A DNA stretch of 64,000 bases from Yamagishiella unicocca (Eukaryota > Chlorophyta > Chlorophyceae > Chlamydomonadales > Volvocaceae). This document shows, one piece after another, positions 1,151 through 31,394 of the stretch. The stretch lies in NCBI GenBank assembly GCA_003116995.1, contig BDSL01000003.1:2356001-2420000 (forward strand). The letters run 5' to 3'. The translations under genes were made by a program, and so were the position numbers. Positions within the stretch are counted from its first letter, which is position 1. Each line of letters starts with the position of its first letter. The notes beneath the pieces are model-generated. The model was not told where the DNA came from, searched no databases, and worked only from the letters and a program-made list of their open reading frames with translations.

Positions 1151-2298
1151 CGAGAGTCGGTAAGGTTACAGGGACCCACTGGAAAGTTTGTTTCGCGCCC
1201 TTTTCCGTTTTGTTAACGGTCACTTTGGGTGGGAGCTTGCTCCCAAAAAGATGGATGAATCCGGCCTGGAGGGAGTGCGCTCCGCGGAAGCACTGGCCTG
1301 GAGCACTCTCCGCAGGAAGGAGATACCGGCACCGCACCGCACGCTGTACTTGTGAAAGGCCTAGTGAAAGGCGGTTGCAATCCAGGACGGGTTCCATGCA
1401 CCGCATGCCAACATACAACACGACTTCTTGATTTGATTTAATGTGTGGTGTTGGATCATCGCTAATAACCATGCTGTAGGTGCTGGTCTGGATCCCTGGA
1501 TCCATAACGAGGCGACGTTTGAGCAGAGGTACGCCTAGCCGTTTCAATAGAGCGCAAGCACAACTAAAAGTTCCATAGCTTTTAAATCCGCATTTGTCGC
1601 CCATACAGCCAGTTGGCGGAGAGCACACCGACAAATGAAATGTTCGGCTTGGGTTTTACTGACCATGTGATGTACATGTGAATAGCATGGTCATTCCTCA
1701 ATGCTTTCATCGCAATTTACTACGCAAGGCGCAAGCAATGACAACTGGGACGTGGGATACCCTGGCCGCAATCGCGTGAGCCGCTTCTCGCAAAGTGTTG
1801 CCGTGAAGCTGGCGAATCATGGGGTCCATACAAACGTGTTGTGACGAGCAATAGAGTACTTAGGATTATACAGAACTGGGAAACAACTGGGAAATACGTA
1901 GAAGAAACCCTAGATTCAATGGCAGAACAAGATGACGGCGTTTATCAACGCCCTTCTCTGGACGCATTGATCGCGGACCGGGAGGAGTAATGACGGCGTA
2001 AGGCCAGGTGACAAGCTTTCCCACGCGCGCAGGAATGGTGCGGTGCGCATCACTGCGTACTTTGCGAGCAAGCGAGCCTGCGGGGGCGGCATTCATAGTT
2101 TACCCTGGATGGATGATTACTGAGATGGCCGCCCGCCTCGCTGCTAGACACGCACCCCCGCACGGCGACAGCAGCGTTTCACTGTATGTCCGGCCCCTCC
2201 TGTACACAGCGGTACCAGCCACGCACTCAGGCGAGCCTTGCTGCTGACGAGAAGGTCTACCCCAATACGTACCTACTTGCTTACATATCACCCCTTAT

Positions 2299-2334
2299 AC
2301 TCGTTCCGCTTCCAACGTGTGAAGCGGAACGAGT
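2299..2334. repeat. Perfect 14-bp inverted repeat upstream of U2 (present in every unit)
   Basis: ACTCGTTCCGCTTC at 2299-2312 is followed by an 8-nt spacer (caacgtgt) and its exact reverse complement at 2321-2334. It lies about 310 bp upstream of the U2 start and recurs in each unit at the same offset (for example 4629-4664). It could be a protein-binding palindrome, the hairpin of another small transcript, or a fragment of an inverted-repeat transposon. The sequence does not decide between these. Confidence 0.7.
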
Positions 2335-2567
2335 AACCGTACATCCCATGCATACGTTCCCGTACGTGGTGGGGCCGTGGTTGTGTACGTGGTTGGAACC
2401 AGGTAGCAGTATCTCGGCTACTCATTATTGGGAGGCAGGGGATGCTTATACGTACTCCGAGGCTTGCCACACGTAGTACGGCTTGCCAAGCAATTATCTG
2501 TGGGACCTGCTGGCGCGGTGGGTGAGAGGCGCTATGGGAGCGACCACGCACAGCAGGCGGGGCGAAG

Positions 2568-2578
2568 GCCCACCATCG
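2568..2578 (+). promoter_or_regulatory. Possible snRNA upstream sequence element (USE-like), unit 1
   Basis: GCCCACCATCG sits about 75 bp before the U2 start. The plant snRNA USE is RTCCCACATCG at about -70; this match needs one inserted base. I see no TATA box near -30, so the assignment is tentative. It is conserved in all twelve units, but so is nearly everything else in the unit. Confidence 0.25.
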
Positions 2579-2642
2579 TGTTGGCCATTTTGTGCGTATG
2601 GCCACATCCGGTTCTGCATTGCGCACCTGCTCCCACACATTC

Positions 2643-2833
2643 ATACCTTTCTCGGCCTTTTGGCTCAGATCATGTGTAGTATCTGTTCTTATAAGCCTAA
2701 ATGCTTATATGGTCCTCATTGAGGACCTGCGATTAACTTCAATCTTTCGAGGGGGCGTGGTCAATGGGGGCGCTTGCGCTCCCGACCCGCCAGCATGGGT
2801 GCGGCCTTACACTACCGCTGCAGCCGTGCACCC
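2643..2833 (+). ncRNA. U2 snRNA gene, copy 1 (left edge, variant loop IIa)
   Basis: U2 is the spliceosomal RNA that pairs with the intron branch site and with U6. The 5' part (ATACCTTTCTCGGCCTTTTG) is nearly identical to plant and animal U2. With A2643 as nt 1, the visible parts are GCU 21-23 and GAUCA 26-30 (U2/U6 helices Ib and Ia), branch-site pairing GUAGUA 34-39, stem IIa 49-54/61-66, a perfect 7-bp stem IIb (GGTCCTC/GAGGACC), an Sm-like site AATCTTTCG near nt 99-107, stem III with a CTTG loop, and a final stem IV ending in GTGCACCC. The length of 191 nt fits U2 (human 188, plants about 196). The 3' end is inferred from stem IV. This copy differs from the others at nt 55, 59 and 60, all in the loop of stem IIa. 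Confidence 0.95.
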
Positions 2834-3171
2834 TACCCACTCAAACAAAGACTACTCCATACTACGTCGACTCCTTTAAGTAATAACTATCCTAAATGTA
2901 TATGCAGCCAGCCCTTCCACTGACGCTTGCTACGCAGCCCCCGCAGCTGTGTGTGTACGACCAACCACACATAATGGCCCCATCGATCGGCACCGGTGGC
3001 AAGGCACCGGTGGCAAAATCAAAACCGGTGGCAGCGGTTGCGGCATTCGTGCGATTGCGGATCCGGCGGCGATGCTGTACGATTGGAACGACGTGGCAGG
3101 ATTGTCGCTGCCCGGGATGGGTGTGGGCTTAGCGGCGGGCTGGAAGGCCGCGGCGGCGGGTGAGCCGGAGG

Positions 3172-3480: not shown

Positions 3481-4972
3481 CGAGAGTCGGTAAGGTTACA
3501 GGGACCCACTGGAAAGTTTGTTTCGCGCCCTTTTCCGTTTTGTTAACGGTCACTTTGGGTGGGAGCTTGCTCCCAAAAAGATGGATGAATCCGGCCTGGA
3601 GGGAGTGCGCTCCGCGGAAGCACTGGCCTGGAGCACTCTCCGCAGGAAGGAGATACCGGCACCGCACCGCACGCTGTACTTGTGAAAGGCCTAGTGAAAG
3701 GCGGTTGCAATCCAGGACGGGTTCCATGCACCGCATGCCAACATACAACACGACTTCTTGATTTGATTTAATGTGTGGTGTTGGATCATCGCTAATAACC
3801 ATGCTGTAGGTGCTGGTCTGGATCCCTGGATCCATAACGAGGCGACGTTTGAGCAGAGGTACGCCTAGCCGTTTCAATAGAGCGCAAGCACAACTAAAAG
3901 TTCCATAGCTTTTAAATCCGCATTTGTCGCCCATACAGCCAGTTGGCGGAGAGCACACCGACAAATGAAATGTTCGGCTTGGGTTTTACTGACCATGTGA
4001 TGTACATGTGAATAGCATGGTCATTCCTCAATGCTTTCATCGCAATTTACTACGCAAGGCGCAAGCAATGACAACTGGGACGTGGGATACCCTGGCCGCA
4101 ATCGCGTGAGCCGCTTCTCGCAAAGTGTTGCCGTGAAGCTGGCGAATCATGGGGTCCATACAAACGTGTTGTGACGAGCAATAGAGTACTTAGGATTATA
4201 CAGAACTGGGAAACAACTGGGAAATACGTAGAAGAAACCCTAGATTCAATGGCAGAACAAGATGACGGCGTTTATCAACGCCCTTCTCTGGACGCATTGA
4301 TCGCGGACCGGGAGGAGTAATGACGGCGTAAGGCCAGGTGACAAGCTTTCCCACGCGCGCAGGAATGGTGCGGTGCGCATCACTGCGTACTTTGCGAGCA
4401 AGCGAGCCTGCGGGGGCGGCATTCATAGTTTACCCTGGATGGATGATTACTGAGATGGCCGCCCGCCTCGCTGCTAGACACGCACCCCCGCACGGCGACA
4501 GCAGCGTTTCACTGTATGTCCGGCCCCTCCTGTACACAGCGGTACCAGCCACGCACTCAGGCGAGCCTTGCTGCTGACGAGAAGGTCTACCCCAATACGT
4601 ACCTACTTGCTTACATATCACCCCTTATACTCGTTCCGCTTCCAACGTGTGAAGCGGAACGAGTAACCGTACATCCCATGCATACGTTCCCGTACGTGGT
4701 GGGGCCGTGGTTGTGTACGTGGTTGGAACCAGGTAGCAGTATCTCGGCTACTCATTATTGGGAGGCAGGGGATGCTTATACGTACTCCGAGGCTTGCCAC
4801 ACGTAGTACGGCTTGCCAAGCAATTATCTGTGGGACCTGCTGGCGCGGTGGGTGAGAGGCGCTATGGGAGCGACCACGCACAGCAGGCGGGGCGAAGGCC
4901 CACCATCGTGTTGGCCATTTTGTGCGTATGGCCACATCCGGTTCTGCATTGCGCACCTGCTCCCACACATTC

Positions 4973-5163
4973 ATACCTTTCTCGGCCTTTTGGCTCAGAT
5001 CATGTGTAGTATCTGTTCTTATAAGCTTAATCGCTTATATGGTCCTCATTGAGGACCTGCGATTAACTTCAATCTTTCGAGGGGGCGTGGTCAATGGGGG
5101 CGCTTGCGCTCCCGACCCGCCAGCATGGGTGCGGCCTTACACTACCGCTGCAGCCGTGCACCC
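4973..5163 (+). ncRNA. U2 snRNA gene, copy 2
   Basis: This copy has the majority sequence, with the stem IIa loop TTAATC. The U6-pairing nucleotides, the branch-site GTAGTA, stem IIb, the Sm-like site and stems III and IV are all intact. The preceding base context is cacacattc. Confidence 0.95.
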
Positions 5164-7301
5164 TACCCACTCAAACAAAGACTACTCCATACTACGTCGA
5201 CTCCTTTAAGTAATAACTATCCTAAATGTATATGCAGCCAGCCCTTCCACTGACGCTTGCTACGCAGCCCCCGCAGCTGTGTGTGTACGACCAACCACAC
5301 ATAATGGCCCCATCGATCGGCACCGGTGGCAAGGCACCGGTGGCAAAATCAAAACCGGTGGCAGCGGTTGCGGCATTCGTGCGATTGCGGATCCGGCGGC
5401 GATGCTGTACGATTGGAACGACGTGGCAGGATTGTCGCTGCCCGGGATGGGTGTGGGCTTAGCGGCGGGCTGGAAGGCCGCGGCGGCGGGTGAGCCGGAG
5501 GGGTCCGTGCTTTTTGAGATGAGAGGCGGCTGGTCCCGATGCTTGCATCGTTGCGGCGCTTCACTGGTTCGTCTGTTGCTGGGCGGTTAGGTTGGTTGGT
5601 GGTCGGTTCCTGATAGGGGAGCCTCTAGTGCAAAGTCCCCCTGGGGTACTGGCTGCTGCTCTGTGTGCCTACGGCCTGTCGATTTGGTGTTCTGGTGGTT
5701 TGCCTTTGTTCCGGCGCACGTCGGTCTTTGTCTCCTCCGTCTTTCACAGAGCCAGGCGATGTGCCCGATGGTTCTACCTCTTGGTCTGGAACCCACTGGA
5801 ACCGTTACAATGAGAGTCGGTAAGGTTACAGGGACCCACTGGAAAGTTTGTTTCGCGCCCTTTTCCGTTTTGTTAACGGTCACTTTGGGTGGGAGCTTGC
5901 TCCCAAAAAGATGGATGAATCCGGCCTGGAGGGAGTGCGCTCCGCGGAAGCACTGGCCTGGAGCACTCTCCGCAGGAAGGAGATACCGGCACCGCACCGC
6001 ACGCTGTACTTGTGAAAGGCCTAGTGAAAGGCGGTTGCAATCCAGGACGGGTTCCATGCACCGCATGCCAACATACAACACGACTTCTTGATTTGATTTA
6101 ATGTGTGGTGTTGGATCATCGCTAATAACCATGCTGTAGGTGCTGGTCTGGATCCCTGGATCCATAACGAGGCGACGTTTGAGCAGAGGTACGCCTAGCC
6201 GTTTCAATAGAGCGCAAGCACAACTAAAAGTTCCATAGCTTTTAAATCCGCATTTGTCGCCCATACAGCCAGTTGGCGGAGAGCACACCGACAAATGAAA
6301 TGTTCGGCTTGGGTTTTACTGACCATGTGATGTACATGTGAATAGCATGGTCATTCCTCAATGCTTTCATCGCAATTTACTACGCAAGGCGCAAGCAATG
6401 ACAACTGGGACGTGGGATACCCTGGCCGCAATCGCGTGAGCCGCTTCTCGCAAAGTGTTGCCGTGAAGCTGGCGAATCATGGGGTCCATACAAACGTGTT
6501 GTGACGAGCAATAGAGTACTTAGGATTATACAGAACTGGGAAACAACTGGGAAATACGTAGAAGAAACCCTAGATTCAATGGCAGAACAAGATGACGGCG
6601 TTTATCAACGCCCTTCTCTGGACGCATTGATCGCGGACCGGGAGGAGTAATGACGGCGTAAGGCCAGGTGACAAGCTTTCCCACGCGCGCAGGAATGGTG
6701 CGGTGCGCATCACTGCGTACTTTGCGAGCAAGCGAGCCTGCGGGGGCGGCATTCATAGTTTACCCTGGATGGATGATTACTGAGATGGCCGCCCGCCTCG
6801 CTGCTAGACACGCACCCCCGCACGGCGACAGCAGCGTTTCACTGTATGTCCGGCCCCTCCTGTACACAGCGGTACCAGCCACGCACTCAGGCGAGCCTTG
6901 CTGCTGACGAGAAGGTCTACCCCAATACGTACCTACTTGCTTACATATCACCCCTTATACTCGTTCCGCTTCCAACGTGTGAAGCGGAACGAGTAACCGT
7001 ACATCCCATGCATACGTTCCCGTACGTGGTGGGGCCGTGGTTGTGTACGTGGTTGGAACCAGGTAGCAGTATCTCGGCTACTCATTATTGGGAGGCAGGG
7101 GATGCTTATACGTACTCCGAGGCTTGCCACACGTAGTACGGCTTGCCAAGCAATTATCTGTGGGACCTGCTGGCGCGGTGGGTGAGAGGCGCTATGGGAG
7201 CGACCACGCACAGCAGGCGGGGCGAAGGCCCACCATCGTGTTGGCCATTTTGTGCGTATGGCCACATCCGGTTCTGCATTGCGCACCTGCTCCCACACTT
7301 C

Positions 7302-7492
7302 ATACCTTTCTCGGCCTTTTGGCTCAGATCATGTGTAGTATCTGTTCTTATAAGCTTAATCGCTTATATGGTCCTCATTGAGGACCTGCGATTAACTTCA
7401 ATCTTTCGAGGGGGCGTGGTCAATGGGGGCGCTTGCGCTCCCGACCCGCCAGCATGGGTGCGGCCTTACACTACCGCTGCAGCCGTGCACCC
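7302..7492 (+). ncRNA. U2 snRNA gene, copy 3
   Basis: The U2 sequence is the majority type. One base is missing immediately upstream (cacacttcat instead of cacacattcat), which makes this unit 2329 bp. The deletion is outside the transcribed region. Confidence 0.95.
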
Positions 7493-9630
7493 TACCCACT
7501 CAAACAAAGACTACTCCATACTACGTCGACTCCTTTAAGTAATAACTATCCTAAATGTATATGCAGCCAGCCCTTCCACTGACGCTTGCTACGCAGCCCC
7601 CGCAGCTGTGTGTGTACGACCAACCACACATAATGGCCCCATCGATCGGCACCGGTGGCAAGGCACCGGTGGCAAAATCAAAACCGGTGGCAGCGGTTGC
7701 GGCATTCGTGCGATTGCGGATCCGGCGGCGATGCTGTACGATTGGAACGACGTGGCAGGATTGTCGCTGCCCGGGATGGGTGTGGGCTTAGCGGCGGGCT
7801 GGAAGGCCGCGGCGGCGGGTGAGCCGGAGGGGTCCGTGCTTTTTGAGATGAGAGGCGGCTGGTCCCGATGCTTGCATCGTTGCGGCGCTTCACTGGTTCG
7901 TCTGTTGCTGGGCGGTTAGGTTGGTTGGTGGTCGGTTCCTGATAGGGGAGCCTCTAGTGCAAAGTCCCCCTGGGGTACTGGCTGCTGCTCTGTGTGCCTA
8001 CGGCCTGTCGATTTGGTGTTCTGGTGGTTTGCCTTTGTTCCGGCGCACGTCGGTCTTTGTCTCCTCCGTCTTTCACAGAGCCAGGCGATGTGCCCGATGG
8101 TTCTACCTCTTGGTCTGGAACCCACTGGAACCGTTACAATGAGAGTCGGTAAGGTTACAGGGACCCACTGGAAAGTTTGTTTCGCGCCCTTTTCCGTTTG
8201 TTAACGGTCACTTTGGGTGGGAGCTTGCTCCCAAAAAGATGGATGAATCCGGCCTGGAGGGAGTGCGCTCCGCGGAAGCACTGGCCTGGAGCACTCTCCG
8301 CAGGAAGGAGATACCGGCACCGCACCGCACGCTGTACTTGTGAAAGGCCTAGTGAAAGGCGGTTGCAATCCAGGACGGGTTCCATGCACCGCATGCCAAC
8401 ATACAACACGACTTCTTGATTTGATTTAATGTGTGGTGTTGGATCATCGCTAATAACCATGCTGTAGGTGCTGGTCTGGATCCCTGGATCCATAACGAGG
8501 CGACGTTTGAGCAGAGGTACGCCTAGCCGTTTCAATAGAGCGCAAGCACAACTAAAAGTTCCATAGCTTTTAAATCCGCATTTGTCGCCCATACAGCCAG
8601 TTGGCGGAGAGCACACCGACAAATGAAATGTTCGGCTTGGGTTTTACTGACCATGTGATGTACATGTGAATAGCATGGTCATTCCTCAATGCTTTCATCG
8701 CAATTTACTACGCAAGGCGCAAGCAATGACAACTGGGACGTGGGATACCCTGGCCGCAATCGCGTGAGCCGCTTCTCGCAAAGTGTTGCCGTGAAGCTGG
8801 CGAATCATGGGGTCCATACAAACGTGTTGTGACGAGCAATAGAGTACTTAGGATTATACAGAACTGGGAAACAACTGGGAAATACGTAGAAGAAACCCTA
8901 GATTCAATGGCAGAACAAGATGACGGCGTTTATCAACGCCCTTCTCTGGACGCATTGATCGCGGACCGGGAGGAGTAATGACGGCGTAAGGCCAGGTGAC
9001 AAGCTTTCCCACGCGCGCAGGAATGGTGCGGTGCGCATCACTGCGTACTTTGCGAGCAAGCGAGCCTGCGGGGGCGGCATTCATAGTTTACCCTGGATGG
9101 ATGATTACTGAGATGGCCGCCCGCCTCGCTGCTAGACACGCACCCCCGCACGGCGACAGCAGCGTTTCACTGTATGTCCGGCCCCTCCTGTACACAGCGG
9201 TACCAGCCACGCACTCAGGCGAGCCTTGCTGCTGACGAGAAGGTCTACCCCAATACGTACCTACTTGCTTACATATCACCCCTTATACTCGTTCCGCTTC
9301 CAACGTGTGAAGCGGAACGAGTAACCGTACATCCCATGCATACGTTCCCGTACGTGGTGGGGCCGTGGTTGTGTACGTGGTTGGAACCAGGTAGCAGTAT
9401 CTCGGCTACTCATTATTGGGAGGCAGGGGATGCTTATACGTACTCCGAGGCTTGCCACACGTAGTACGGCTTGCCAAGCAATTATCTGTGGGACCTGCTG
9501 GCGCGGTGGGTGAGAGGCGCTATGGGAGCGACCACGCACAGCAGGCGGGGCGAAGGCCCACCATCGTGTTGGCCATTTTGTGCGTATGGCCACATCCGGT
9601 TCTGCATTGCGCACCTGCTCCCACACATTC

Positions 9631-9821
9631 ATACCTTTCTCGGCCTTTTGGCTCAGATCATGTGTAGTATCTGTTCTTATAAGCTTAATCGCTTATATGG
9701 TCCTCATTGAGGACCTGCGATTAACTTCAATCTTTCGAGGGGGCGTGGTCAATGGGGGCGCTTGCGCTCCCGACCCGCCAGCATGGGTGCGGCCTTACAC
9801 TACCGCTGCAGCCGTGCACCC
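9631..9821 (+). ncRNA. U2 snRNA gene, copy 4
   Basis: The U2 sequence is the majority type and all core elements are intact. The unit carries a one-base deletion in a T run near its start (about 8197), far from the RNA. Confidence 0.95.
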
Positions 9822-11960
9822 TACCCACTCAAACAAAGACTACTCCATACTACGTCGACTCCTTTAAGTAATAACTATCCTAAATGTATATGCAGCCAGC
9901 CCTTCCACTGACGCTTGCTACGCAGCCCCCGCAGCTGTGTGTGTACGACCAACCACACATAATGGCCCCATCGATCGGCACCGGTGGCAAGGCACCGGTG
10001 GCAAAATCAAAACCGGTGGCAGCGGTTGCGGCATTCGTGCGATTGCGGATCCGGCGGCGATGCTGTACGATTGGAACGACGTGGCAGGATTGTCGCTGCC
10101 CGGGATGGGTGTGGGCTTAGCGGCGGGCTGGAAGGCCGCGGCGGCGGGTGAGCCGGAGGGGTCCGTGCTTTTTGAGATGAGAGGCGGCTGGTCCCGATGC
10201 TTGCATCGTTGCGGCGCTTCACTGGTTCGTCTGTTGCTGGGCGGTTAGGTTGGTTGGTGGTCGGTTCCTGATAGGGGAGCCTCTAGTGCAAAGTCCCCCT
10301 GGGGTACTGGCTGCTGCTCTGTGTGCCTACGGCCTGTCGATTTGGTGTTCTGGTGGTTTGCCTTTGTTCCGGCGCACGTCGGTCTTTGTCTCCTCCGTCT
10401 TTCACAGAGCCAGGCGATGTGCCCGATGGTTCTACCTCTTGGTCTGGAACCCACTGGAACCGTTACAACGAGAGTCGGTAAGGTTACAGGGACCCACTGG
10501 AAAGTTTGTTTCGCGCCCTTTTCCGTTTTGTTAACGGTCACTTTGGGTGGGAGCTTGCTCCCAAAAAGATGGATGAATCCGGCCTGGAGGGAGTGCGCTC
10601 CGCGGAAGCACTGGCCTGGAGCACTCTCCGCAGGAAGGAGATACCGGCACCGCACCGCACGCTGTACTTGTGAAAGGCCTAGTGAAAGGCGGTTGCAATC
10701 CAGGACGGGTTCCATGCACCGCATGCCAACATACAACACGACTTCTTGATTTGATTTAATGTGTGGTGTTGGATCATCGCTAATAACCATGCTGTAGGTG
10801 CTGGTCTGGATCCCTGGATCCATAACGAGGCGACGTTTGAGCAGAGGTACGCCTAGCCGTTTCAATAGAGCGCAAGCACAACTAAAAGTTCCATAGCTTT
10901 TAAATCCGCATTTGTCGCCCATACAGCCAGTTGGCGGAGAGCACACCGACAAATGAAATGTTCGGCTTGGGTTTTACTGACCATGTGATGTACATGTGAA
11001 TAGCATGGTCATTCCTCAATGCTTTCATCGCAATTTACTACGCAAGGCGCAAGCAATGACAACTGGGACGTGGGATACCCTGGCCGCAATCGCGTGAGCC
11101 GCTTCTCGCAAAGTGTTGCCGTGAAGCTGGCGAATCATGGGGTCCATACAAACGTGTTGTGACGAGCAATAGAGTACTTAGGATTATACAGAACTGGGAA
11201 ACAACTGGGAAATACGTAGAAGAAACCCTAGATTCAATGGCAGAACAAGATGACGGCGTTTATCAACGCCCTTCTCTGGACGCATTGATCGCGGACCGGG
11301 AGGAGTAATGACGGCGTAAGGCCAGGTGACAAGCTTTCCCACGCGCGCAGGAATGGTGCGGTGCGCATCACTGCGTACTTTGCGAGCAAGCGAGCCTGCG
11401 GGGGCGGCATTCATAGTTTACCCTGGATGGATGATTACTGAGATGGCCGCCCGCCTCGCTGCTAGACACGCACCCCCGCACGGCGACAGCAGCGTTTCAC
11501 TGTATGTCCGGCCCCTCCTGTACACAGCGGTACCAGCCACGCACTCAGGCGAGCCTTGCTGCTGACGAGAAGGTCTACCCCAATACGTACCTACTTGCTT
11601 ACATATCACCCCTTATACTCGTTCCGCTTCCAACGTGTGAAGCGGAACGAGTAACCGTACATCCCATGCATACGTTCCCGTACGTGGTGGGGCCGTGGTT
11701 GTGTACGTGGTTGGAACCAGGTAGCAGTATCTCGGCTACTCATTATTGGGAGGCAGGGGATGCTTATACGTACTCCGAGGCTTGCCACACGTAGTACGGC
11801 TTGCCAAGCAATTATCTGTGGGACCTGCTGGCGCGGTGGGTGAGAGGCGCTATGGGAGCGACCACGCACAGCAGGCGGGGCGAAGGCCCACCATCGTGTT
11901 GGCCATTTTGTGCGTATGGCCACATCCGGTTCTGCATTGCGCACCTGCTCCCACACATTC

Positions 11961-12151
11961 ATACCTTTCTCGGCCTTTTGGCTCAGATCATGTGTAGTAT
12001 CTGTTCTTATAAGCTTAATCGCTTATATGGTCCTCATTGAGGACCTGCGATTAACTTCAATCTTTCGAGGGGGCGTGGTCAATGGGGGCGCTTGCGCTCC
12101 CGACCCGCCAGCATGGGTGCGGCCTTACACTACCGCTGCAGCCGTGCACCC
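11961..12151 (+). ncRNA. U2 snRNA gene, copy 5
   Basis: This is the majority U2 sequence in a 2330-bp unit with the cacacattc upstream variant. Confidence 0.95.
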
Positions 12152-14290
12152 TACCCACTCAAACAAAGACTACTCCATACTACGTCGACTCCTTTAAGTA
12201 ATAACTATCCTAAATGTATATGCAGCCAGCCCTTCCACTGACGCTTGCTACGCAGCCCCCGCAGCTGTGTGTGTACGACCAACCACACATAATGGCCCCA
12301 TCGATCGGCACCGGTGGCAAGGCACCGGTGGCAAAATCAAAACCGGTGGCAGCGGTTGCGGCATTCGTGCGATTGCGGATCCGGCGGCGATGCTGTACGA
12401 TTGGAACGACGTGGCAGGATTGTCGCTGCCCGGGATGGGTGTGGGCTTAGCGGCGGGCTGGAAGGCCGCGGCGGCGGGTGAGCCGGAGGGGTCCGTGCTT
12501 TTTGAGATGAGAGGCGGCTGGTCCCGATGCTTGCATCGTTGCGGCGCTTCACTGGTTCGTCTGTTGCTGGGCGGTTAGGTTGGTTGGTGGTCGGTTCCTG
12601 ATAGGGGAGCCTCTAGTGCAAAGTCCCCCTGGGGTACTGGCTGCTGCTCTGTGTGCCTACGGCCTGTCGATTTGGTGTTCTGGTGGTTTGCCTTTGTTCC
12701 GGCGCACGTCGGTCTTTGTCTCCTCCGTCTTTCACAGAGCCAGGCGATGTGCCCGATGGTTCTACCTCTTGGTCTGGAACCCACTGGAACCGTTACAACG
12801 AGAGTCGGTAAGGTTACAGGGACCCACTGGAAAGTTTGTTTCGCGCCCTTTTTCGTATTGTTTACGGCCACTTTGGGTGGGAGCTTGCTCCCAAAAAGAT
12901 GGATGAATCCGGCCTGGAGGGAGTGCGCTCCGCGGAAGCACTGGCCTGGAGCACTCTCCGCAGGAAGGAGATACCGGCACCGCACCGCACGCTGTACTTG
13001 TGAAAGGCCTAGTGAAAGGCGGTTGCAATCCAGGACGGGTTCCATGCACCGCATGCCAACATACAACACGACTTCTTGATTTGATTTAATGTGTGGTGTT
13101 GGATCATCGCTAATAACCATGCTGTAGGTGCTGGTCTGGATCCCTGGATCCATAACGAGGCGACGTTTGAGCAGAGGTACGCCTAGCCGTTTCAATAGAG
13201 CGCAAGCACAACTAAAAGTTCCATAGCTTTTAAATCCGCATTTGTCGCCCATACAGCCAGTTGGCGGAGAGCACACCGACAAATGAAATGTTCGGCTTGG
13301 GTTTTACTGACCATGTGATGTACATGTGAATAGCATGGTCATTCCTCAATGCTTTCATCGCAATTTACTACGCAAGGCGCAAGCAATGACAACTGGGACG
13401 TGGGATACCCTGGCCGCAATCGCGTGAGCCGCTTCTCGCAAAGTGTTGCCGTGAAGCTGGCGAATCATGGGGTCCATACAAACGTGTTGTGACGAGCAAT
13501 AGAGTACTTAGGATTATACAGAACTGGGAAACAACTGGGAAATACGTAGAAGAAACCCTAGATTCAATGGCAGAACAAGATGACGGCGTTTATCAACGCC
13601 CTTCTCTGGACGCATTGATCGCGGACCGGGAGGAGTAATGACGGCGTAAGGCCAGGTGACAAGCTTTCCCACGCGCGCAGGAATGGTGCGGTGCGCATCA
13701 CTGCGTACTTTGCGAGCAAGCGAGCCTGCGGGGGCGGCATTCATAGTTTACCCTGGATGGATGATTACTGAGATGGCCGCCCGCCTCGCTGCTAGACACG
13801 CACCCCCGCACGGCGACAGCAGCGTTTCACTGTATGTCCGGCCCCTCCTGTACACAGCGGTACCAGCCACGCACTCAGGCGAGCCTTGCTGCTGACGAGA
13901 AGGTCTACCCCAATACGTACCTACTTGCTTACATATCACCCCTTATACTCGTTCCGCTTCCAACGTGTGAAGCGGAACGAGTAACCGTACATCCCATGCA
14001 TACGTTCCCGTACGTGGTGGGGCCGTGGTTGTGTACGTGGTTGGAACCAGGTAGCAGTATCTCGGCTACTCATTATTGGGAGGCAGGGGATGCTTATACG
14101 TACTCCGAGGCTTGCCACACGTAGTACGGCTTGCCAAGCAATTATCTGTGGGACCTGCTGGCGCGGTGGGTGAGAGGCGCTATGGGAGCGACCACGCACA
14201 GCAGGCGGGGCGAAGGCCCACCATCGTGTTGGCCATTTTGTGCGTATGGCCACATCCGGTTGTGCATTGCGCACCTGCTCCCACACTTTC

Positions 14291-16620: not shown

Positions 16621-16811
16621 ATACCTTTCTCGGCCTTTTGGCTCAGATCATGTGTAGTATCTGTTCTTATAAGCTTAATCGCTTATATGGTCCTCATTGA
16701 GGACCTGCGATTAACTTCAATCTTTCGAGGGGGCGTGGTCAATGGGGGCGCTTGCGCTCCCGACCCGCCAGCATGGGTGCGGCCTTACACTACCGCTGCA
16801 GCCGTGCACCC
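16621..16811 (+). ncRNA. U2 snRNA gene, copy 7
   Basis: This is the majority U2 sequence, with the cacactttc upstream variant found in units 6 to 11. Confidence 0.95.
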
Positions 16812-18950
16812 TACCCACTCAAACAAAGACTACTCCATACTACGTCGACTCCTTTAAGTAATAACTATCCTAAATGTATATGCAGCCAGCCCTTCCACTG
16901 ACGCTTGCTACGCAGCCCCCGCAGCTGTGTGTGTACGACCAACCACACATAATGGCCCCATCGATCGGCACCGGTGGCAAGGCACCGGTGGCAAAATCAA
17001 AACCGGTGGCAGCGGTTGCGGCATTCGTGCGATTGCGGATCCGGCGGCGATGCTGTACGATTGGAACGACGTGGCAGGATTGTCGCTGCCCGGGATGGGT
17101 GTGGGCTTAGCGGCGGGCTGGAAGGCCGCGGCGGCGGGTGAGCCGGAGGGGTCCGTGCTTTTTGAGATGAGAGGCGGCTGGTCCCGATGCTTGCATCGTT
17201 GCGGCGCTTCACTGGTTCGTCTGTTGCTGGGCGGTTAGGTTGGTTGGTGGTCGGTTCCTGATAGGGGAGCCTCTAGTGCAAAGTCCCCCTGGGGTACTGG
17301 CTGCTGCTCTGTGTGCCTACGGCCTGTCGATTTGGTGTTCTGGTGGTTTGCCTTTGTTCCGGCGCACGTCGGTCTTTGTCTCCTCCGTCTTTCACAGAGC
17401 CAGGCGATGTGCCCGATGGTTCTACCTCTTGGTCTGGAACCCACTGGAACCGTTACAACGAGAGTCGGTAAGGTTACAGGGACCCACTGGAAAGTTTGTT
17501 TCGCGCCCTTTTCCGTTTTGTTAACGGTCACTTTGGGTGGGAGCTTGCTCCCAAAAAGATGGATGAATCCGGCCTGGAGGGAGTGCGCTCCGCGGAAGCA
17601 CTGGCCTGGAGCACTCTCCGCAGGAAGGAGATACCGGCACCGCACCGCACGCTGTACTTGTGAAAGGCCTAGTGAAAGGCGGTTGCAATCCAGGACGGGT
17701 TCCATGCACCGCATGCCAACATACAACACGACTTCTTGATTTGATTTAATGTGTGGTGTTGGATCATCGCTAATAACCATGCTGTAGGTGCTGGTCTGGA
17801 TCCCTGGATCCATAACGAGGCGACGTTTGAGCAGAGGTACGCCTAGCCGTTTCAATAGAGCGCAAGCACAACTAAAAGTTCCATAGCTTTTAAATCCGCA
17901 TTTGTCGCCCATACAGCCAGTTGGCGGAGAGCACACCGACAAATGAAATGTTCGGCTTGGGTTTTACTGACCATGTGATGTACATGTGAATAGCATGGTC
18001 ATTCCTCAATGCTTTCATCGCAATTTACTACGCAAGGCGCAAGCAATGACAACTGGGACGTGGGATACCCTGGCCGCAATCGCGTGAGCCGCTTCTCGCA
18101 AAGTGTTGCCGTGAAGCTGGCGAATCATGGGGTCCATACAAACGTGTTGTGACGAGCAATAGAGTACTTAGGATTATACAGAACTGGGAAACAACTGGGA
18201 AATACGTAGAAGAAACCCTAGATTCAATGGCAGAACAAGATGACGGCGTTTATCAACGCCCTTCTCTGGACGCATTGATCGCGGACCGGGAGGAGTAATG
18301 ACGGCGTAAGGCCAGGTGACAAGCTTTCCCACGCGCGCAGGAATGGTGCGGTGCGCATCACTGCGTACTTTGCGAGCAAGCGAGCCTGCGGGGGCGGCAT
18401 TCATAGTTTACCCTGGATGGATGATTACTGAGATGGCCGCCCGCCTCGCTGCTAGACACGCACCCCCGCACGGCGACAGCAGCGTTTCACTGTATGTCCG
18501 GCCCCTCCTGTACACAGCGGTACCAGCCACGCACTCAGGCGAGCCTTGCTGCTGACGAGAAGGTCTACCCCAATACGTACCTACTTGCTTACATATCACC
18601 CCTTATACTCGTTCCGCTTCCAACGTGTGAAGCGGAACGAGTAACCGTACATCCCATGCATACGTTCCCGTACGTGGTGGGGCCGTGGTTGTGTACGTGG
18701 TTGGAACCAGGTAGCAGTATCTCGGCTACTCATTATTGGGAGGCAGGGGATGCTTATACGTACTCCGAGGCTTGCCACACGTAGTACGGCTTGCCAAGCA
18801 ATTATCTGTGGGACCTGCTGGCGCGGTGGGTGAGAGGCGCTATGGGAGCGACCACGCACAGCAGGCGGGGCGAAGGCCCACCATCGTGTTGGCCATTTTG
18901 TGCGTATGGCCACATCCGGTTCTGCATTGCGCACCTGCTCCCACACTTTC

Positions 18951-19141
18951 ATACCTTTCTCGGCCTTTTGGCTCAGATCATGTGTAGTATCTGTTCTTAT
19001 AAGCTTAATCGCTTATATGGTCCTCATTGAGGACCTGCGATTAACTTCAATCTTTCGAGGGGGCGTGGTCAATGGGGGCGCTTGCGCTCCCGACCCGCCA
19101 GCATGGGTGCGGCCTTACACTACCGCTGCAGCCGTGCACCC
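18951..19141 (+). ncRNA. U2 snRNA gene, copy 8
   Basis: This is the majority U2 sequence with the cacactttc upstream variant. The unit appears identical to units 7 and 9 at every variable site I followed. Confidence 0.95.
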
Positions 19142-21280
19142 TACCCACTCAAACAAAGACTACTCCATACTACGTCGACTCCTTTAAGTAATAACTATCC
19201 TAAATGTATATGCAGCCAGCCCTTCCACTGACGCTTGCTACGCAGCCCCCGCAGCTGTGTGTGTACGACCAACCACACATAATGGCCCCATCGATCGGCA
19301 CCGGTGGCAAGGCACCGGTGGCAAAATCAAAACCGGTGGCAGCGGTTGCGGCATTCGTGCGATTGCGGATCCGGCGGCGATGCTGTACGATTGGAACGAC
19401 GTGGCAGGATTGTCGCTGCCCGGGATGGGTGTGGGCTTAGCGGCGGGCTGGAAGGCCGCGGCGGCGGGTGAGCCGGAGGGGTCCGTGCTTTTTGAGATGA
19501 GAGGCGGCTGGTCCCGATGCTTGCATCGTTGCGGCGCTTCACTGGTTCGTCTGTTGCTGGGCGGTTAGGTTGGTTGGTGGTCGGTTCCTGATAGGGGAGC
19601 CTCTAGTGCAAAGTCCCCCTGGGGTACTGGCTGCTGCTCTGTGTGCCTACGGCCTGTCGATTTGGTGTTCTGGTGGTTTGCCTTTGTTCCGGCGCACGTC
19701 GGTCTTTGTCTCCTCCGTCTTTCACAGAGCCAGGCGATGTGCCCGATGGTTCTACCTCTTGGTCTGGAACCCACTGGAACCGTTACAACGAGAGTCGGTA
19801 AGGTTACAGGGACCCACTGGAAAGTTTGTTTCGCGCCCTTTTCCGTTTTGTTAACGGTCACTTTGGGTGGGAGCTTGCTCCCAAAAAGATGGATGAATCC
19901 GGCCTGGAGGGAGTGCGCTCCGCGGAAGCACTGGCCTGGAGCACTCTCCGCAGGAAGGAGATACCGGCACCGCACCGCACGCTGTACTTGTGAAAGGCCT
20001 AGTGAAAGGCGGTTGCAATCCAGGACGGGTTCCATGCACCGCATGCCAACATACAACACGACTTCTTGATTTGATTTAATGTGTGGTGTTGGATCATCGC
20101 TAATAACCATGCTGTAGGTGCTGGTCTGGATCCCTGGATCCATAACGAGGCGACGTTTGAGCAGAGGTACGCCTAGCCGTTTCAATAGAGCGCAAGCACA
20201 ACTAAAAGTTCCATAGCTTTTAAATCCGCATTTGTCGCCCATACAGCCAGTTGGCGGAGAGCACACCGACAAATGAAATGTTCGGCTTGGGTTTTACTGA
20301 CCATGTGATGTACATGTGAATAGCATGGTCATTCCTCAATGCTTTCATCGCAATTTACTACGCAAGGCGCAAGCAATGACAACTGGGACGTGGGATACCC
20401 TGGCCGCAATCGCGTGAGCCGCTTCTCGCAAAGTGTTGCCGTGAAGCTGGCGAATCATGGGGTCCATACAAACGTGTTGTGACGAGCAATAGAGTACTTA
20501 GGATTATACAGAACTGGGAAACAACTGGGAAATACGTAGAAGAAACCCTAGATTCAATGGCAGAACAAGATGACGGCGTTTATCAACGCCCTTCTCTGGA
20601 CGCATTGATCGCGGACCGGGAGGAGTAATGACGGCGTAAGGCCAGGTGACAAGCTTTCCCACGCGCGCAGGAATGGTGCGGTGCGCATCACTGCGTACTT
20701 TGCGAGCAAGCGAGCCTGCGGGGGCGGCATTCATAGTTTACCCTGGATGGATGATTACTGAGATGGCCGCCCGCCTCGCTGCTAGACACGCACCCCCGCA
20801 CGGCGACAGCAGCGTTTCACTGTATGTCCGGCCCCTCCTGTACACAGCGGTACCAGCCACGCACTCAGGCGAGCCTTGCTGCTGACGAGAAGGTCTACCC
20901 CAATACGTACCTACTTGCTTACATATCACCCCTTATACTCGTTCCGCTTCCAACGTGTGAAGCGGAACGAGTAACCGTACATCCCATGCATACGTTCCCG
21001 TACGTGGTGGGGCCGTGGTTGTGTACGTGGTTGGAACCAGGTAGCAGTATCTCGGCTACTCATTATTGGGAGGCAGGGGATGCTTATACGTACTCCGAGG
21101 CTTGCCACACGTAGTACGGCTTGCCAAGCAATTATCTGTGGGACCTGCTGGCGCGGTGGGTGAGAGGCGCTATGGGAGCGACCACGCACAGCAGGCGGGG
21201 CGAAGGCCCACCATCGTGTTGGCCATTTTGTGCGTATGGCCACATCCGGTTCTGCATTGCGCACCTGCTCCCACACTTTC

Positions 21281-21471
21281 ATACCTTTCTCGGCCTTTTG
21301 GCTCAGATCATGTGTAGTATCTGTTCTTATAAGCTTAATCGCTTATATGGTCCTCATTGAGGACCTGCGATTAACTTCAATCTTTCGAGGGGGCGTGGTC
21401 AATGGGGGCGCTTGCGCTCCCGACCCGCCAGCATGGGTGCGGCCTTACACTACCGCTGCAGCCGTGCACCC
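21281..21471 (+). ncRNA. U2 snRNA gene, copy 9
   Basis: This is the majority U2 sequence with the cacactttc upstream variant. All core pairing elements are intact. Confidence 0.95.
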
Positions 21472-23612
21472 TACCCACTCAAACAAAGACTACTCCATAC
21501 TACGTCGACTCCTTTAAGTAATAACTATCCTAAATGTATATGCAGCCAGCCCTTCCACTGACGCTTGCTACGCAGCCCCCGCAGCTGTGTGTGTACGACC
21601 AACCACACATAATGGCCCCATCGATCGGCACCGGTGGCAAGGCACCGGTGGCAAAATCAAAACCGGTGGCAGCGGTTGCGGCATTCGTGCGATTGCGGAT
21701 CCGGCGGCGATGCTGTACGATTGGAACGACGTGGCAGGATTGTCGCTGCCCGGGATGGGTGTGGGCTTAGCGGCGGGCTGGAAGGCCGCGGCGGCGGGTG
21801 AGCCGGAGGGGTCCGTGCTTTTTGAGATGAGAGGCGGCTGGTCCCGATGCTTGCATCGTTGCGGCGCTTCACTGGTTCGTCTGTTGCTGGGCGGTTAGGT
21901 TGGTTGGTGGTCGGTTCCTGATAGGGGAGCCTCTAGTGCAAAGTCCCCCTGGGGTACTGGCTGCTGCTCTGTGTGCCTACGGCCTGTCGATTTGGTGTTC
22001 TGGTGGTTTGCCTTTGTTCCGGCGCACGTCGGTCTTTGTCTCCTCCGTCTTTCACAGAGCCAGGCGATGTGCCCGATGGTTCTACCTCTTGGTCTGGAAC
22101 CCACTGGAACCGTTACAACGAGAGTCGGTAAGGTTACAGGGACCCACTGGAAAGTTTGTTTCGCGCCCTTTTCCGTTTTGTTAACGGTCACTTTGGGTGG
22201 GAGCTTGCTCCCAAAAAGATGGATGAATCCGGCCTGGAGGGAGTGCGCTCCGCGGAAGCACTGGCCTGGAGCACTCTCCGCAGGAAGGAGATACCGGCAC
22301 CGCACCGCACGCTGTACTTGTGAAAGGCCTAGTGAAAGGCGGTTGCAATCCAGGACGGGTTCCATGCACCGCATGCCAACATACAACACGACTTCTTGAT
22401 TTGATTTAATGTGTGGTGTTGGATCATCGCTAATAACCATGCTGTAGGTGCTGGTCTGGATCCCTGGATCCATAACGAGGCGACGTTTGAGCAGAGGTAC
22501 GCCTAGCCGTTTCAATAGAGCGCAAGCACAACTAAAAGTTCCATAGCTTTTAAATCCGCATTTGTCGCCCATACAGCCAGTTGGCGGAGAGCACACCGAC
22601 AAATGAAATGTTCGGCTTGGGTTTTACTGACCATGTGATGTACATGTGAATAGCATGGTCATTCCTCAATGCTTTCATCGCAATTTACTACGCAAGGCGC
22701 AAGCAATGACAACTGGGACGTGGGATACCCTGGCCGCAATCGCGTGAGCCGCTTCTCGCAAAGTGTTGCCGTGAAGCTGGCGAATCATGGGGTCCATACA
22801 AACGTGTTGTGACGAGCAATAGAGTACTTAGGATTATACAGAACTGGGAAACAACTGGGAAATACGTAGAAGAAACCCTAGATTCAATGGCAGAACAAGA
22901 TGACGGCGTTTATCAACGCCCTTCTCTGGACGCATTGATCGCGGACCGGGAGGAGTAATGACGGCGTAAGGCCAGGTGACAAGCTTTCCCACGCGCGCAG
23001 GAATGGTGCGGTGCGCATCACTGCGTACTTTGCGAGCAAGCGAGCCTGCGGGGGCGGCATTCATAGTTTACCCTGGATGGATGATTACTGAGATGGCCGC
23101 CCGCCTCGCTGCTAGACACGCACCCCCGCACGGCGACAGCAGCGTTTCACTGTATGTCCGGCCCCTCCTGTACACAGCGGTACCAGCCACGCACTCAGGC
23201 GAGCCTTGCTGCTGACGAGAAGGTCTACCCCAATACGTACCTACTTGCTTACATATCACCCCTTATACTCGTTCCGCTTCCAACGTGTGAAGCGGAACGA
23301 GTAACCGTACATCCCATGCATACGTTCCCGTACGTGGTGGGGCCGTGGTTGTGTACGTGGTTGGAACCAGGTAGCAGTATCTCGGCTACTCATATTATTG
23401 GGAGGCAGGGGATGCTTATACGTACTCCGAGGCTTGCCACACGTAGTACGGCTTGCCAAGCAATTATCTGTGGGACCTGCTGGCGCGGTGGGTGAGAGGC
23501 GCTATGGGAGCGACCACGCACAGCAGGCGGGGCGAAGGCCCACCATCGTGTTGGCCATTTTGTGCGTATGGCCACATCCGGTTGTGCATTGCGCACCTGC
23601 TCCCACACTTTC

Positions 23613-23803
23613 ATACCTTTCTCGGCCTTTTGGCTCAGATCATGTGTAGTATCTGTTCTTATAAGCTTAATCGCTTATATGGTCCTCATTGAGGACCTGC
23701 GATTAACTTCAATCTTTCGAGGGGGCGTGGTCAATGGGGGCGCTTGCGCTCCCGACCCGCCAGCATGGGTGCGGCCTTACACTACCGCTGCAGCCGTGCA
23801 CCC
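23613..23803 (+). ncRNA. U2 snRNA gene, copy 10
   Basis: The U2 sequence is the majority type. The unit has a 2-bp insertion about 220 bp upstream of the RNA (catattattg at 23391-23400) and the gttgtgcattg variant. Confidence 0.95.
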
Positions 23804-25944
23804 TACCCACTCAAACAAAGACTACTCCATACTACGTCGACTCCTTTAAGTAATAACTATCCTAAATGTATATGCAGCCAGCCCTTCCACTGACGCTTGC
23901 TACGCAGCCCCCGCAGCTGTGTGTGTACGACCAACCACACATAATGGCCCCATCGATCGGCACCGGTGGCAAGGCACCGGTGGCAAAATCAAAACCGGTG
24001 GCAGCGGTTGCGGCATTCGTGCGATTGCGGATCCGGCGGCGATGCTGTACGATTGGAACGACGTGGCAGGATTGTCGCTGCCCGGGATGGGTGTGGGCTT
24101 AGCGGCGGGCTGGAAGGCCGCGGCGGCGGGTGAGCCGGAGGGGTCCGTGCTTTTTGAGATGAGAGGCGGCTGGTCCCGATGCTTGCATCGTTGCGGCGCT
24201 TCACTGGTTCGTCTGTTGCTGGGCGGTTAGGTTGGTTGGTGGTCGGTTCCTGATAGGGGAGCCTCTAGTGCAAAGTCCCCCTGGGGTACTGGCTGCTGCT
24301 CTGTGTGCCTACGGCCTGTCGATTTGGTGTTCTGGTGGTTTGCCTTTGTTCCGGCGCACGTCGGTCTTTGTCTCCTCCGTCTTTCACAGAGCCAGGCGAT
24401 GTGCCCGATGGTTCTACCTCTTGGTCTGGAACCCACTGGAACCGTTACAACGAGAGTCGGTAAGGTTACAGGGACCCACTGGAAAGTTTGTTTCGCGCCC
24501 TTTTTCGTATTGTTTACGGCCACTTTGGGTGGGAGCTTGCTCCCAAAAAGATGGATGAATCCGGCCTGGAGGGAGTGCGCTCCGCGGAAGCACTGGCCTG
24601 GAGCACTCTCCGCAGGAAGGAGATACCGGCACCGCACCGCACGCTGTACTTGTGAAAGGCCTAGTGAAAGGCGGTTGCAATCCAGGACGGGTTCCATGCA
24701 CCGCATGCCAACATACAACACGACTTCTTGATTTGATTTAATGTGTGGTGTTGGATCATCGCTAATAACCATGCTGTAGGTGCTGGTCTGGATCCCTGGA
24801 TCCATAACGAGGCGACGTTTGAGCAGAGGTACGCCTAGCCGTTTCAATAGAGCGCAAGCACAACTAAAAGTTCCATAGCTTTTAAATCCGCATTTGTCGC
24901 CCATACAGCCAGTTGGCGGAGAGCACACCGACAAATGAAATGTTCGGCTTGGGTTTTACTGACCATGTGATGTACATGTGAATAGCATGGTCATTCCTCA
25001 ATGCTTTCATCGCAATTTACTACGCAAGGCGCAAGCAATGACAACTGGGACGTGGGATACCCTGGCCGCAATCGCGTGAGCCGCTTCTCGCAAAGTGTTG
25101 CCGTGAAGCTGGCGAATCATGGGGTCCATACAAACGTGTTGTGACGAGCAATAGAGTACTTAGGATTATACAGAACTGGGAAACAACTGGGAAATACGTA
25201 GAAGAAACCCTAGATTCAATGGCAGAACAAGATGACGGCGTTTATCAACGCCCTTCTCTGGACGCATTGATCGCGGACCGGGAGGAGTAATGACGGCGTA
25301 AGGCCAGGTGACAAGCTTTCCCACGCGCGCAGGAATGGTGCGGTGCGCATCACTGCGTACTTTGCGAGCAAGCGAGCCTGCGGGGGCGGCATTCATAGTT
25401 TACCCTGGATGGATGATTACTGAGATGGCCGCCCGCCTCGCTGCTAGACACGCACCCCCGCACGGCGACAGCAGCGTTTCACTGTATGTCCGGCCCCTCC
25501 TGTACACAGCGGTACCAGCCACGCACTCAGGCGAGCCTTGCTGCTGACGAGAAGGTCTACCCCAATACGTACCTACTTGCTTACATATCACCCCTTATAC
25601 TCGTTCCGCTTCCAACGTGTGAAGCGGAACGAGTAACCGTACATCCCATGCATACGTTCCCGTACGTGGTGGGGCCGTGGTTGTGTACGTGGTTGGAACC
25701 AGGTAGCAGTATCTCGGCTACTCATATTATTGGGAGGCAGGGGATGCTTATACGTACTCCGAGGCTTGCCACACGTAGTACGGCTTGCCAAGCAATTATC
25801 TGTGGGACCTGCTGGCGCGGTGGGTGAGAGGCGCTATGGGAGCGACCACGCACAGCAGGCGGGGCGAAGGCCCACCATCGTGTTGGCCATTTTGTGCGTA
25901 TGGCCACATCCGGTTGTGCATTGCGCACCTGCTCCCACACTTTC

Positions 25945-26135
25945 ATACCTTTCTCGGCCTTTTGGCTCAGATCATGTGTAGTATCTGTTCTTATAAGCTT
26001 AATCGCTTATATGGTCCTCATTGAGGACCTGCGATTAACTTCAATCTTTCGAGGGGGCGTGGTCAATGGGGGCGCTTGCGCTCCCGACCCGCCAGCATGG
26101 GTGCGGCCTTACACTACCGCTGCAGCCGTGCACCC
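25945..26135 (+). ncRNA. U2 snRNA gene, copy 11
   Basis: The U2 sequence is the majority type. The unit combines the 2-bp upstream insertion seen in unit 10 with the variant start (cctttttcgtattg) seen in units 6 and 12. Confidence 0.95.
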
Positions 26136-28274
26136 TACCCACTCAAACAAAGACTACTCCATACTACGTCGACTCCTTTAAGTAATAACTATCCTAAATG
26201 TATATGCAGCCAGCCCTTCCACTGACGCTTGCTACGCAGCCCCCGCAGCTGTGTGTGTACGACCAACCACACATAATGGCCCCATCGATCGGCACCGGTG
26301 GCAAGGCACCGGTGGCAAAATCAAAACCGGTGGCAGCGGTTGCGGCATTCGTGCGATTGCGGATCCGGCGGCGATGCTGTACGATTGGAACGACGTGGCA
26401 GGATTGTCGCTGCCCGGGATGGGTGTGGGCTTAGCGGCGGGCTGGAAGGCCGCGGCGGCGGGTGAGCCGGAGGGGTCCGTGCTTTTTGAGATGAGAGGCG
26501 GCTGGTCCCGATGCTTGCATCGTTGCGGCGCTTCACTGGTTCGTCTGTTGCTGGGCGGTTAGGTTGGTTGGTGGTCGGTTCCTGATAGGGGAGCCTCTAG
26601 TGCAAAGTCCCCCTGGGGTACTGGCTGCTGCTCTGTGTGCCTACGGCCTGTCGATTTGGTGTTCTGGTGGTTTGCCTTTGTTCCGGCGCACGTCGGTCTT
26701 TGTCTCCTCCGTCTTTCACAGAGCCAGGCGATGTGCCCGATGGTTCTACCTCTTGGTCTGGAACCCACTGGAACCGTTACAACGAGAGTCGGTAAGGTTA
26801 CAGGGACCCACTGGAAAGTTTGTTTCGCGCCCTTTTTCGTATTGTTTACGGCCACTTTGGGTGGGAGCTTGCTCCCAAAAAGATGGATGAATCCGGCCTG
26901 GAGGGAGTGCGCTCCGCGGAAGCACTGGCCTGGAGCACTCTCCGCAGGAAGGAGATACCGGCACCGCACCGCACGCTGTACTTGTGAAAGGCCTAGTGAA
27001 AGGCGGTTGCAATCCAGGACGGGTTCCATGCACCGCATGCCAACATACAACACGACTTCTTGATTTGATTTAATGTGTGGTGTTGGATCATCGCTAATAA
27101 CCATGCTGTAGGTGCTGGTCTGGATCCCTGGATCCATAACGAGGCGACGTTTGAGCAGAGGTACGCCTAGCCGTTTCAATAGAGCGCAAGCACAACTAAA
27201 AGTTCCATAGCTTTTAAATCCGCATTTGTCGCCCATACAGCCAGTTGGCGGAGAGCACACCGACAAATGAAATGTTCGGCTTGGGTTTTACTGACCATGT
27301 GATGTACATGTGAATAGCATGGTCATTCCTCAATGCTTTCATCGCAATTTACTACGCAAGGCGCAAGCAATGACAACTGGGACGTGGGATACCCTGGCCG
27401 CAATCGCGTGAGCCGCTTCTCGCAAAGTGTTGCCGTGAAGCTGGCGAATCATGGGGTCCATACAAACGTGTTGTGACGAGCAATAGAGTACTTAGGATTA
27501 TACAGAACTGGGAAACAACTGGGAAATACGTAGAAGAAACCCTAGATTCAATGGCAGAACAAGATGACGGCGTTTATCAACGCCCTTCTCTGGACGCATT
27601 GATCGCGGACCGGGAGGAGTAATGACGGCGTAAGGCCAGGTGACAAGCTTTCCCACGCGCGCAGGAATGGTGCGGTGCGCATCACTGCGTACTTTGCGAG
27701 CAAGCGAGCCTGCGGGGGCGGCATTCATAGTTTACCCTGGATGGATGATTACTGAGATGGCCGCCCGCCTCGCTGCTAGACACGCACCCCCGCACGGCGA
27801 CAGCAGCGTTTCACTGTATGTCCGGCCCCTCCTGTACACAGCGGTACCAGCCACGCACTCAGGCGAGCCTTGCTGCTGACGAGAAGGTCTACCCCAATAC
27901 GTACCTACTTGCTTACATATCACCCCTTATACTCGTTCCGCTTCCAACGTGTGAAGCGGAACGAGTAACCGTACATCCCATGCATACGTTCCCGTACGTG
28001 GTGGGGCCGTGGTTGTGTACGTGGTTGGAACCAGGTAGCAGTATCTCGGCTACTCATTATTGGGAGGCAGGGGATGCTTATACGTACTCCGAGGCTTGCC
28101 ACACGTAGTACGGCTTGCCAAGCAATTATCTGTGGGACCTGCTGGCGCGGTGGGTGAGAGGCGCTATGGGAGCGACCACGCACAGCAGGCGGGGCGAAGG
28201 CCCACCATCGTGTTGGCCATTTTGTGCGTATGGCCACATCCGGTTCTGCATTGCGCACCTGCTCCCACACATTC

Positions 28275-28465
28275 ATACCTTTCTCGGCCTTTTGGCTCAG
28301 ATCATGTGTAGTATCTGTTCTTATAAGCTTAATCGCTTATATGGTCCTCATTGAGGATCTGCGATTAACTTCAGTCTTTCGAGGGGGCGTGGTCAATGGG
28401 GGCGCTTGCGCTCCCGACCCGCCAGCATGGGTGCGGCCTTACACTACCGCTGCAGCCGTGCACCC
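28275..28465 (+). ncRNA. U2 snRNA gene, copy 12 (right edge, diverged)
   Basis: The catalytic and branch-site core is intact. There are two substitutions inside the RNA: C to T at 28358, which turns a G-C pair of stem IIb into G-U, and A to G at 28374, in the Sm-like site (AGTCTTTCG instead of AATCTTTCG). A third substitution at 28477 is just downstream. The unit ends about 65 bp after the RNA. The Sm-site change could weaken Sm-ring binding, so this copy may be poorly functional. Confidence 0.9.
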
Positions 28466-28530
28466 TACCCACTCAATCAAAGACTACTCCATACTACGTC
28501 GACCTTTTAAGTAATAAGTTTCCTAAATTT

Positions 28531-29000: not shown

Positions 29001-29009
29001 CAAAATCCC

Positions 29010-31350: not shown

Positions 31351-31394
31351 ATTAGTGCCCGATGCCCACACTCTGGTGAAGCCCGGGGTGGCAG

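Follow-up and report, generated by a model that had tools for sequence, protein, structure and literature searches.

The locus raises the question of why U2 genes stand twelve in a row on a single contig of this green alga, and of whether they form a multigene locus serving the spliceosome, a satellite in which most copies are idle, or a row whose length owes something to the assembly. Our results indicate that it is very probably a locus of tandem genes for the spliceosomal U2 snRNA, which would have been built from a U2-bearing segment and a dispersed repeat, multiplied head to tail and homogenised by exchange.

Layout and extent of the U2 array

The window, that is, the whole 64-kb stretch of DNA analysed here, corresponds to contig C3:2356001-2420000, and the genome searches were run over the 133.4-Mb assembly to which it belongs (133,378,104 bases in 1415 contigs). 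When the whole window was scanned (cmscan) against all 4227 Rfam families at the gathering threshold, exactly 12 matches to the U2 model (RF00004) were obtained, all on the + strand and spanning model positions 1-192 of 192, and no RNA gene other than U2 was detected. These matches score 139.9-144.8 bits against a gathering threshold of 46, with E-values from 1.1e-29 to 1.6e-28. The Rfam check thus bears out the twelve U2 genes, always on the + strand, that the initial annotation had proposed; the gene length of 191 nt given there has to be corrected, the Rfam footprint being 194 nt.

The first gene lies at 2643..2836 (140.7 bits). Genes 2 to 11, each scoring 144.8 bits, occupy 4973..5166, 7302..7495, 9631..9824, 11961..12154, 14291..14484, 16621..16814, 18951..19144, 21281..21474, 23613..23806 and 25945..26138, and gene 12 is found at 28275..28468 (139.9 bits). 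The successive spacings are 2330, 2329, 2329, 2330, 2330, 2330, 2330, 2330, 2332, 2332 and 2330 bp, in agreement with the tandem unit of about 2330 bp claimed previously.

By self-BLAST, the repeat extends from 1151 to 28528 on the + strand (27.4 kb) at 99.2-99.8% identity, and consists of 11 complete units of 2329-2332 bp followed by a 3'-truncated twelfth. The start is that of the initial annotation, and the end falls 2 bp short of the position 28530 given there. Unit 12 is 1746 bp long and ends 60 bp past its U2 gene, which is intact, so that the former description as a complete array of twelve holds for the intact U2 genes and not for the units. Both edges do lie inside the window, as had been stated: the flanks join other sequence, and the 10 kb upstream hold no further U2 match. 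Among the genome-search matches (46 of 5236 candidates scored), contig C3 has no other U2 outside the array. The copy number given here is the count in one assembly.

Promoter element and predicted RNA

A motif scan found CCCACCATCG at -73 or -74 of 12/12 array U2 genes. It is located at 4899..4908 (+ strand, -74) for gene 2, at 7229 for gene 3 (-73) and, always at -74, at 2569, 9557, 11887, 14217, 16547, 18877, 21207, 23539, 25871 and 28201 for the others, all on the + strand; the 64-kb window contains one additional occurrence. Throughout the genome, the form CCCACCATC[G/A] precedes every one of the 30 intact U2 genes found by 73-75 bp, including the 18 outside the array; two copies in which other sequence takes the place of the initial ~15 nt (C220:15632 and C455:6207) lack it at that distance. 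The same form was recovered at -73 or -74 in 11 of the 12 U1 loci whose flanks were examined (17 U1 loci were found), the twelfth having CCCACCATTG. The array genes therefore carry a promoter mark common to the intact U2 genes and the examined U1 loci. When ten U2 promoters were compared without gaps, no conserved position appeared near -30; a TATA-like box of variable spacing would be missed in this way.

Plant snRNA promoters have an upstream sequence element, RTCCCACATCG, near -70. They likewise have CCCAC-ATC conserved at a constant distance in both U1 and U2 genes, although CCCACCATCG has one C more than the plant element. As each unit has its own element at -74, it should be transcribed independently by a polymerase II machinery of the snRNA type, as suggested by the promoter.

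The predicted RNA carries GUAGUA at U2 position 34 of the reference copy, invariant across the array copies, which we take to be the branch-point pairing sequence of U2. A predicted Sm site, AAUCUUUCGAG, aligns to the consensus site of Rfam, from which its sequence deviates. Inner copies carry UUAAUC (positions 55-60), the exact complement of GAUUAA (89-94), and their predicted fold uses this pairing. In unit 1, changes at positions 55, 59 and 60, presumably within the stem-IIa loop, turn UUAAUC into CUAAAU; the 6-nt complementarity with 89-94 is lost and a hairpin is predicted to form instead. The U2 genes of the array look functional on the whole.

Proposed origin and homogenisation, and alternative readings

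The unit consists of a U2 segment of ~1.95 kb, the remainder being mainly a dispersed repeat of ~311 bp. The U2-bearing segment (reference unit positions 80-2024; 3560..5504, + strand) matches a single U2 locus on contig C9 at 93.4% by BLAST, and parts of the unit match the units of another U2 group, on C35, at ~80%. Unit sequence upstream of U2 also has relatives on C79, C56, C23 and C64 without a U2 match. The dispersed repeat, located by genome search at 5500..5810 (+ strand) at the unit junction, is present once in each of units 1-11; outside the array it occurs in at least 29 places and as three short fragments (40 of 2039 candidates scored), its left end being fixed by the query chosen. 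Diverged copies of it, also on the + strand, are found at both edges by BLAST: at 525..754 on the left (92-94% in two blocks with an internal gap), within a longer repeat that begins near 370, and at 28734..29001 on the right (83% with gaps). A longer stretch is common to the two edges (370-757 and 28546-29003, BLAST).

The array is not isolated in this genome. At least 32 U2 copies were found on 11 contigs (46 of 5236 candidates scored), with 12 on C3 and 20 on ten other contigs. C35 holds seven, at a 3.4-kb spacing interrupted by longer gaps; C92, C220 and C455 together hold another seven, in ~5.5-kb units that also carry a mitochondrial-carrier-like gene; and single genes are located on C9, C46, C10, C24, C32 and C44. 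Since C92, C220 and C455 overlap each other, with contigs breaking in or near their U2 array, some of their U2 copies may be one gene seen twice. An Rfam scan of 14 of 31 loci returned 13 U2 genes and one tRNA. Four U1 genes form a run on C35, ~7.3 kb apart, and the genome has at least seven U4, 23 U5 and nine U6 genes. Tandem growth of snRNA genes is thus recurrent here, and the window's array is the largest case found rather than an exception. The U2 genes of this genome have undergone multiplication and disruption more than once.

Human RNU2 undergoes concerted evolution, and the same process had been proposed for the present array. Our alignment of the units shows 25 variable columns in 2335, and unit pairs differ by at most 0.75% (gaps ignored), against 6.6% to the C9 copy of the U2-bearing segment. 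The U2 bodies of units 2-11 are identical; private U2 changes are confined to unit 1 (the three described above) and unit 12 (two, at positions 84 and 100), the latter having further changes just downstream of its U2 gene. Position 157 is G in 12/12 array copies versus T in 20/20 other copies found, and this position alone separates the U2 bodies of the array from those of the single-copy C9 and C46 genes. Over the first ~1745 columns, several units are free of substitutions relative to each other; with indels set aside, this holds for units 6 and 11, which do not adjoin. Units 6, 11 and 12 have a four-site haplotype in common. Exchange within the array would give both this haplotype and the likeness of units 6 and 11. 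The invariance of the U2 body in units 2-11, the variation at the edge units and the array-private G157 support the proposal of concerted evolution. Homogenised inner units with drifting edges fit the marks expected of exchange inside the array, as far as these can be told from sequence comparison; G157 could have been present in the founding copy, and its fixation alone is no proof of exchange.

In the scenario that we favour, a U2-bearing segment, such as the one present in single copy on C9, would have been joined to a copy of the ~311-bp dispersed repeat, and this founding unit would have multiplied head to tail, most likely via unequal exchange. Ongoing exchange and gene conversion would keep the inner units nearly identical, and the edge units, which would pair less often, would drift. 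The array presumably confers a dosage benefit.

The homogeneity could also come from a recent burst of duplication instead of continuing exchange, against which the drift at the edges and the array-private G157 suggest a certain age without being decisive. It is rather unlikely, in our view, that the array, real in kind, owes its size to the assembly, with units collapsed or over-extended, so that neither twelve nor complete could be relied upon. The units free of substitutions between them over those ~1745 columns, the 27.4-kb length and the overlapping contigs that break in or near another U2 array all speak for such an artefact. Nevertheless, both edges of the C3 array join other sequence, the window runs 35 kb beyond it without any N, and the units can be told apart by the 25 variable columns, by their length (2329-2332 bp) and by the edge-specific changes.

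We consider it very unlikely that the units form a silent satellite, multiplied by chance around a U2 gene and with only one or a few copies transcribed. The loss of the 6-nt complementarity in unit 1 would agree with it, as edge copies may decay, and exchange alone, without selection, could give the conservation observed. Nevertheless, unit 1 is in other respects predicted to fold with nearly the stability of an inner copy (-79.8 vs -80.8 kcal/mol), none of the twelve genes has lost the upstream element or the full-length U2, and ten copies have the same U2 body. A mobile element acting through rolling-circle or retroposed copies, rather than unequal exchange, appears a most improbable maker of the array. 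Units 1-11 do each hold a dispersed repeat with at least 29 further places in the genome, and a helicase-bearing element sits inside a U2 gene in another U2 array, but the repeat is too short for autonomy, the twelve U2 genes of the array are uninterrupted, and the unit's longest frame (235 aa), the only one scanned of the 16 frames of at least 70 aa that overlap the reference unit, has no Pfam match. Homogenisation of a tandem U2 locus by exchange is the reading that we retain.

A disrupted U2 locus and comparison with known arrays

The helicase-bearing element just mentioned is located on C92, where only nine nucleotides matching U2 follow a third U2 promoter, with looser similarity to +17. 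After this cut U2, fragments are chained in a single orientation, each corresponding to the upstream region of a U2 locus: C44-like (99.3% over 1444 columns), C9-like, C24-like, C35-like, C24-like again and C3-array-like (100% over 119 bp). With that of C92 itself, there are seven fragments from six locus types, six of them with their end at -1 to +10 relative to the U2 start and one with its end near -22. C92 and C220 are the only contigs on which the chain was detected, and C56 has a further C9-like promoter cut at ~+7. At the chain joints the fragments have short bases in common, such as CAT and ATGGGA.

Past the chain, two long frames occupy the opposite strand. One contains a PIF1-like helicase (Pfam E 6.4e-24), and the other encodes a 694-aa putative tyrosine recombinase, whose R...H..R...Y layout was judged by eye. 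They are the only frames of at least 180 aa in the unspliced sequence of C92:417601-434241, the last ~0.7 kb on the right being known from C455 and C220 only. Pfam recognised no HUH Rep domain in the frames of the element and no reverse transcriptase in its two long frames. The 694-aa protein has no significant match in Pfam, PHROGs, NCBIfam or PDB sequences (best PDB E 0.22); among the matches listed (8000 candidates scored per search) it has a single relative, the homologue P0001 (39%), with which its candidate catalytic residues are conserved, by eye. No relative was confirmed in the viral contigs scanned for this recombinase-like protein. Diverged relatives of both C92 genes (28-33% identical) are located near each other and in the same order on C15 and C137, and with this order kept, the two-gene unit looks like an element family. 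The right end of the element returns to a U2 body on C455 and C220, which, summing coordinates across the overlapping contigs, gives ~17 kb, and the helicase copy on C220 has stops.

These features raise the tentative and, on balance, doubtful idea that U2 loci are the target of an undescribed mobile element, encoding the PIF1-like helicase and the tyrosine-recombinase-like protein, which would insert near +7 to +10 and would have moved serially through about six U2 loci, the C3 array included, taking along a piece of each promoter. If the C92 element is mobile, it would stand for a new class of site-preferring DNA element with U2 genes as its target. Two observations weigh against movement into U2: the two copies occupy U2 units of one kind, so that a single insertion may have been duplicated along with its array, and the relatives on C15 and C137 are not near any U2 match listed. 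The promoter chain could equally arise from template switching at a start site with high transcription. The chain was also considered as the end of an ordinary Helitron, which we did not adopt as no Rep domain was recognised; the short bases at the joints would equally be given by microhomology-mediated template switching.

Tandem U2 arrays are already known from human and Phytophthora, and the array described here adds another example; among open-access titles, we found no report of a U2 array from a green alga. The initial annotation had likened the array to human RNU2, and the likeness holds. RNU2 is a tandem array of 6-82 copies of a 6.1-kb unit, also with one U2 per unit, arranged head to tail in a nearly perfect array and with mobile-element sequence inside the unit (PMC3795722); the present unit is shorter, at 2.33 kb. 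In further contrast to RNU2, the C3 array is one of three U2 tandem groups that coexist with six single loci, and its private edge variants are visible. In Phytophthora, U2 arrays with Utopia insertions are reported (PMC4640811). These are likewise tandem U2 genes in a protist, and the present genome also has disrupted U2 genes outside the window, whereas every copy of the C3 array is free of disruption. Non-LTR retrotransposons are the U2-targeted elements that the Utopia paper names (PMC4640811), in contrast to the C92 disruptor with its helicase and putative recombinase, which sits at U2 +9, near the 5' end.

With the present locus, the U2 arrays on record gain what seems to be a representative from a green alga. 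Since its two edges and every assembled unit can be read, drift at the edges, as predicted under concerted evolution, becomes testable in a small genome. Three tandem U2 groups and six single genes under one promoter element also offer a natural experiment on the build-up and repair of snRNA dosage.

Right flank of the window's array and a further tandem repeat

The right flank of the U2 array (window 29517-32805) matches contig C9 of the same assembly (stretch L029) at ~75-95%, and these matches lie on both sides of the single U2 gene of C9. This flank includes a 45-bp minisatellite (31500-32805); further along the window, a 49-bp tandem repeat is present in 3.2 copies with 100% matches (47479-47637).

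U2 and U1 groups on C35

Contig C35 carries both a U2 array and a tandem run of U1 genes. Its seven U2 genes (129232-179305) are separated by six spacings, three of 3.4 kb, one of 5.3 kb and two of ~17 kb. The four U1 genes (785860-807968) are spaced by ~7.3 kb.

Interrupted U2 loci and neighboring genes

In the overlapping contigs C92 (417501-424875; L018, L044), C220 (1-5608) and C455 (6207), a U2 gene is truncated at +9 and followed by a chain of seven U2-promoter fragments whose sources are six U2 locus types. Beyond this chain, we found a PIF1-like helicase gene and a putative tyrosine-recombinase-like gene; relatives of the two genes are located close together on C15 and on C137. Likewise on C92, ~1 kb upstream of its first U2 gene, an open frame of 1191 aa (L017, 1-3576) contains a reverse transcriptase domain (E 7.9e-28). 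On C56 (602981-603180; L046), a U2 promoter precedes only ~seven U2 nucleotides, the U2 body being absent within the 200 bases examined.
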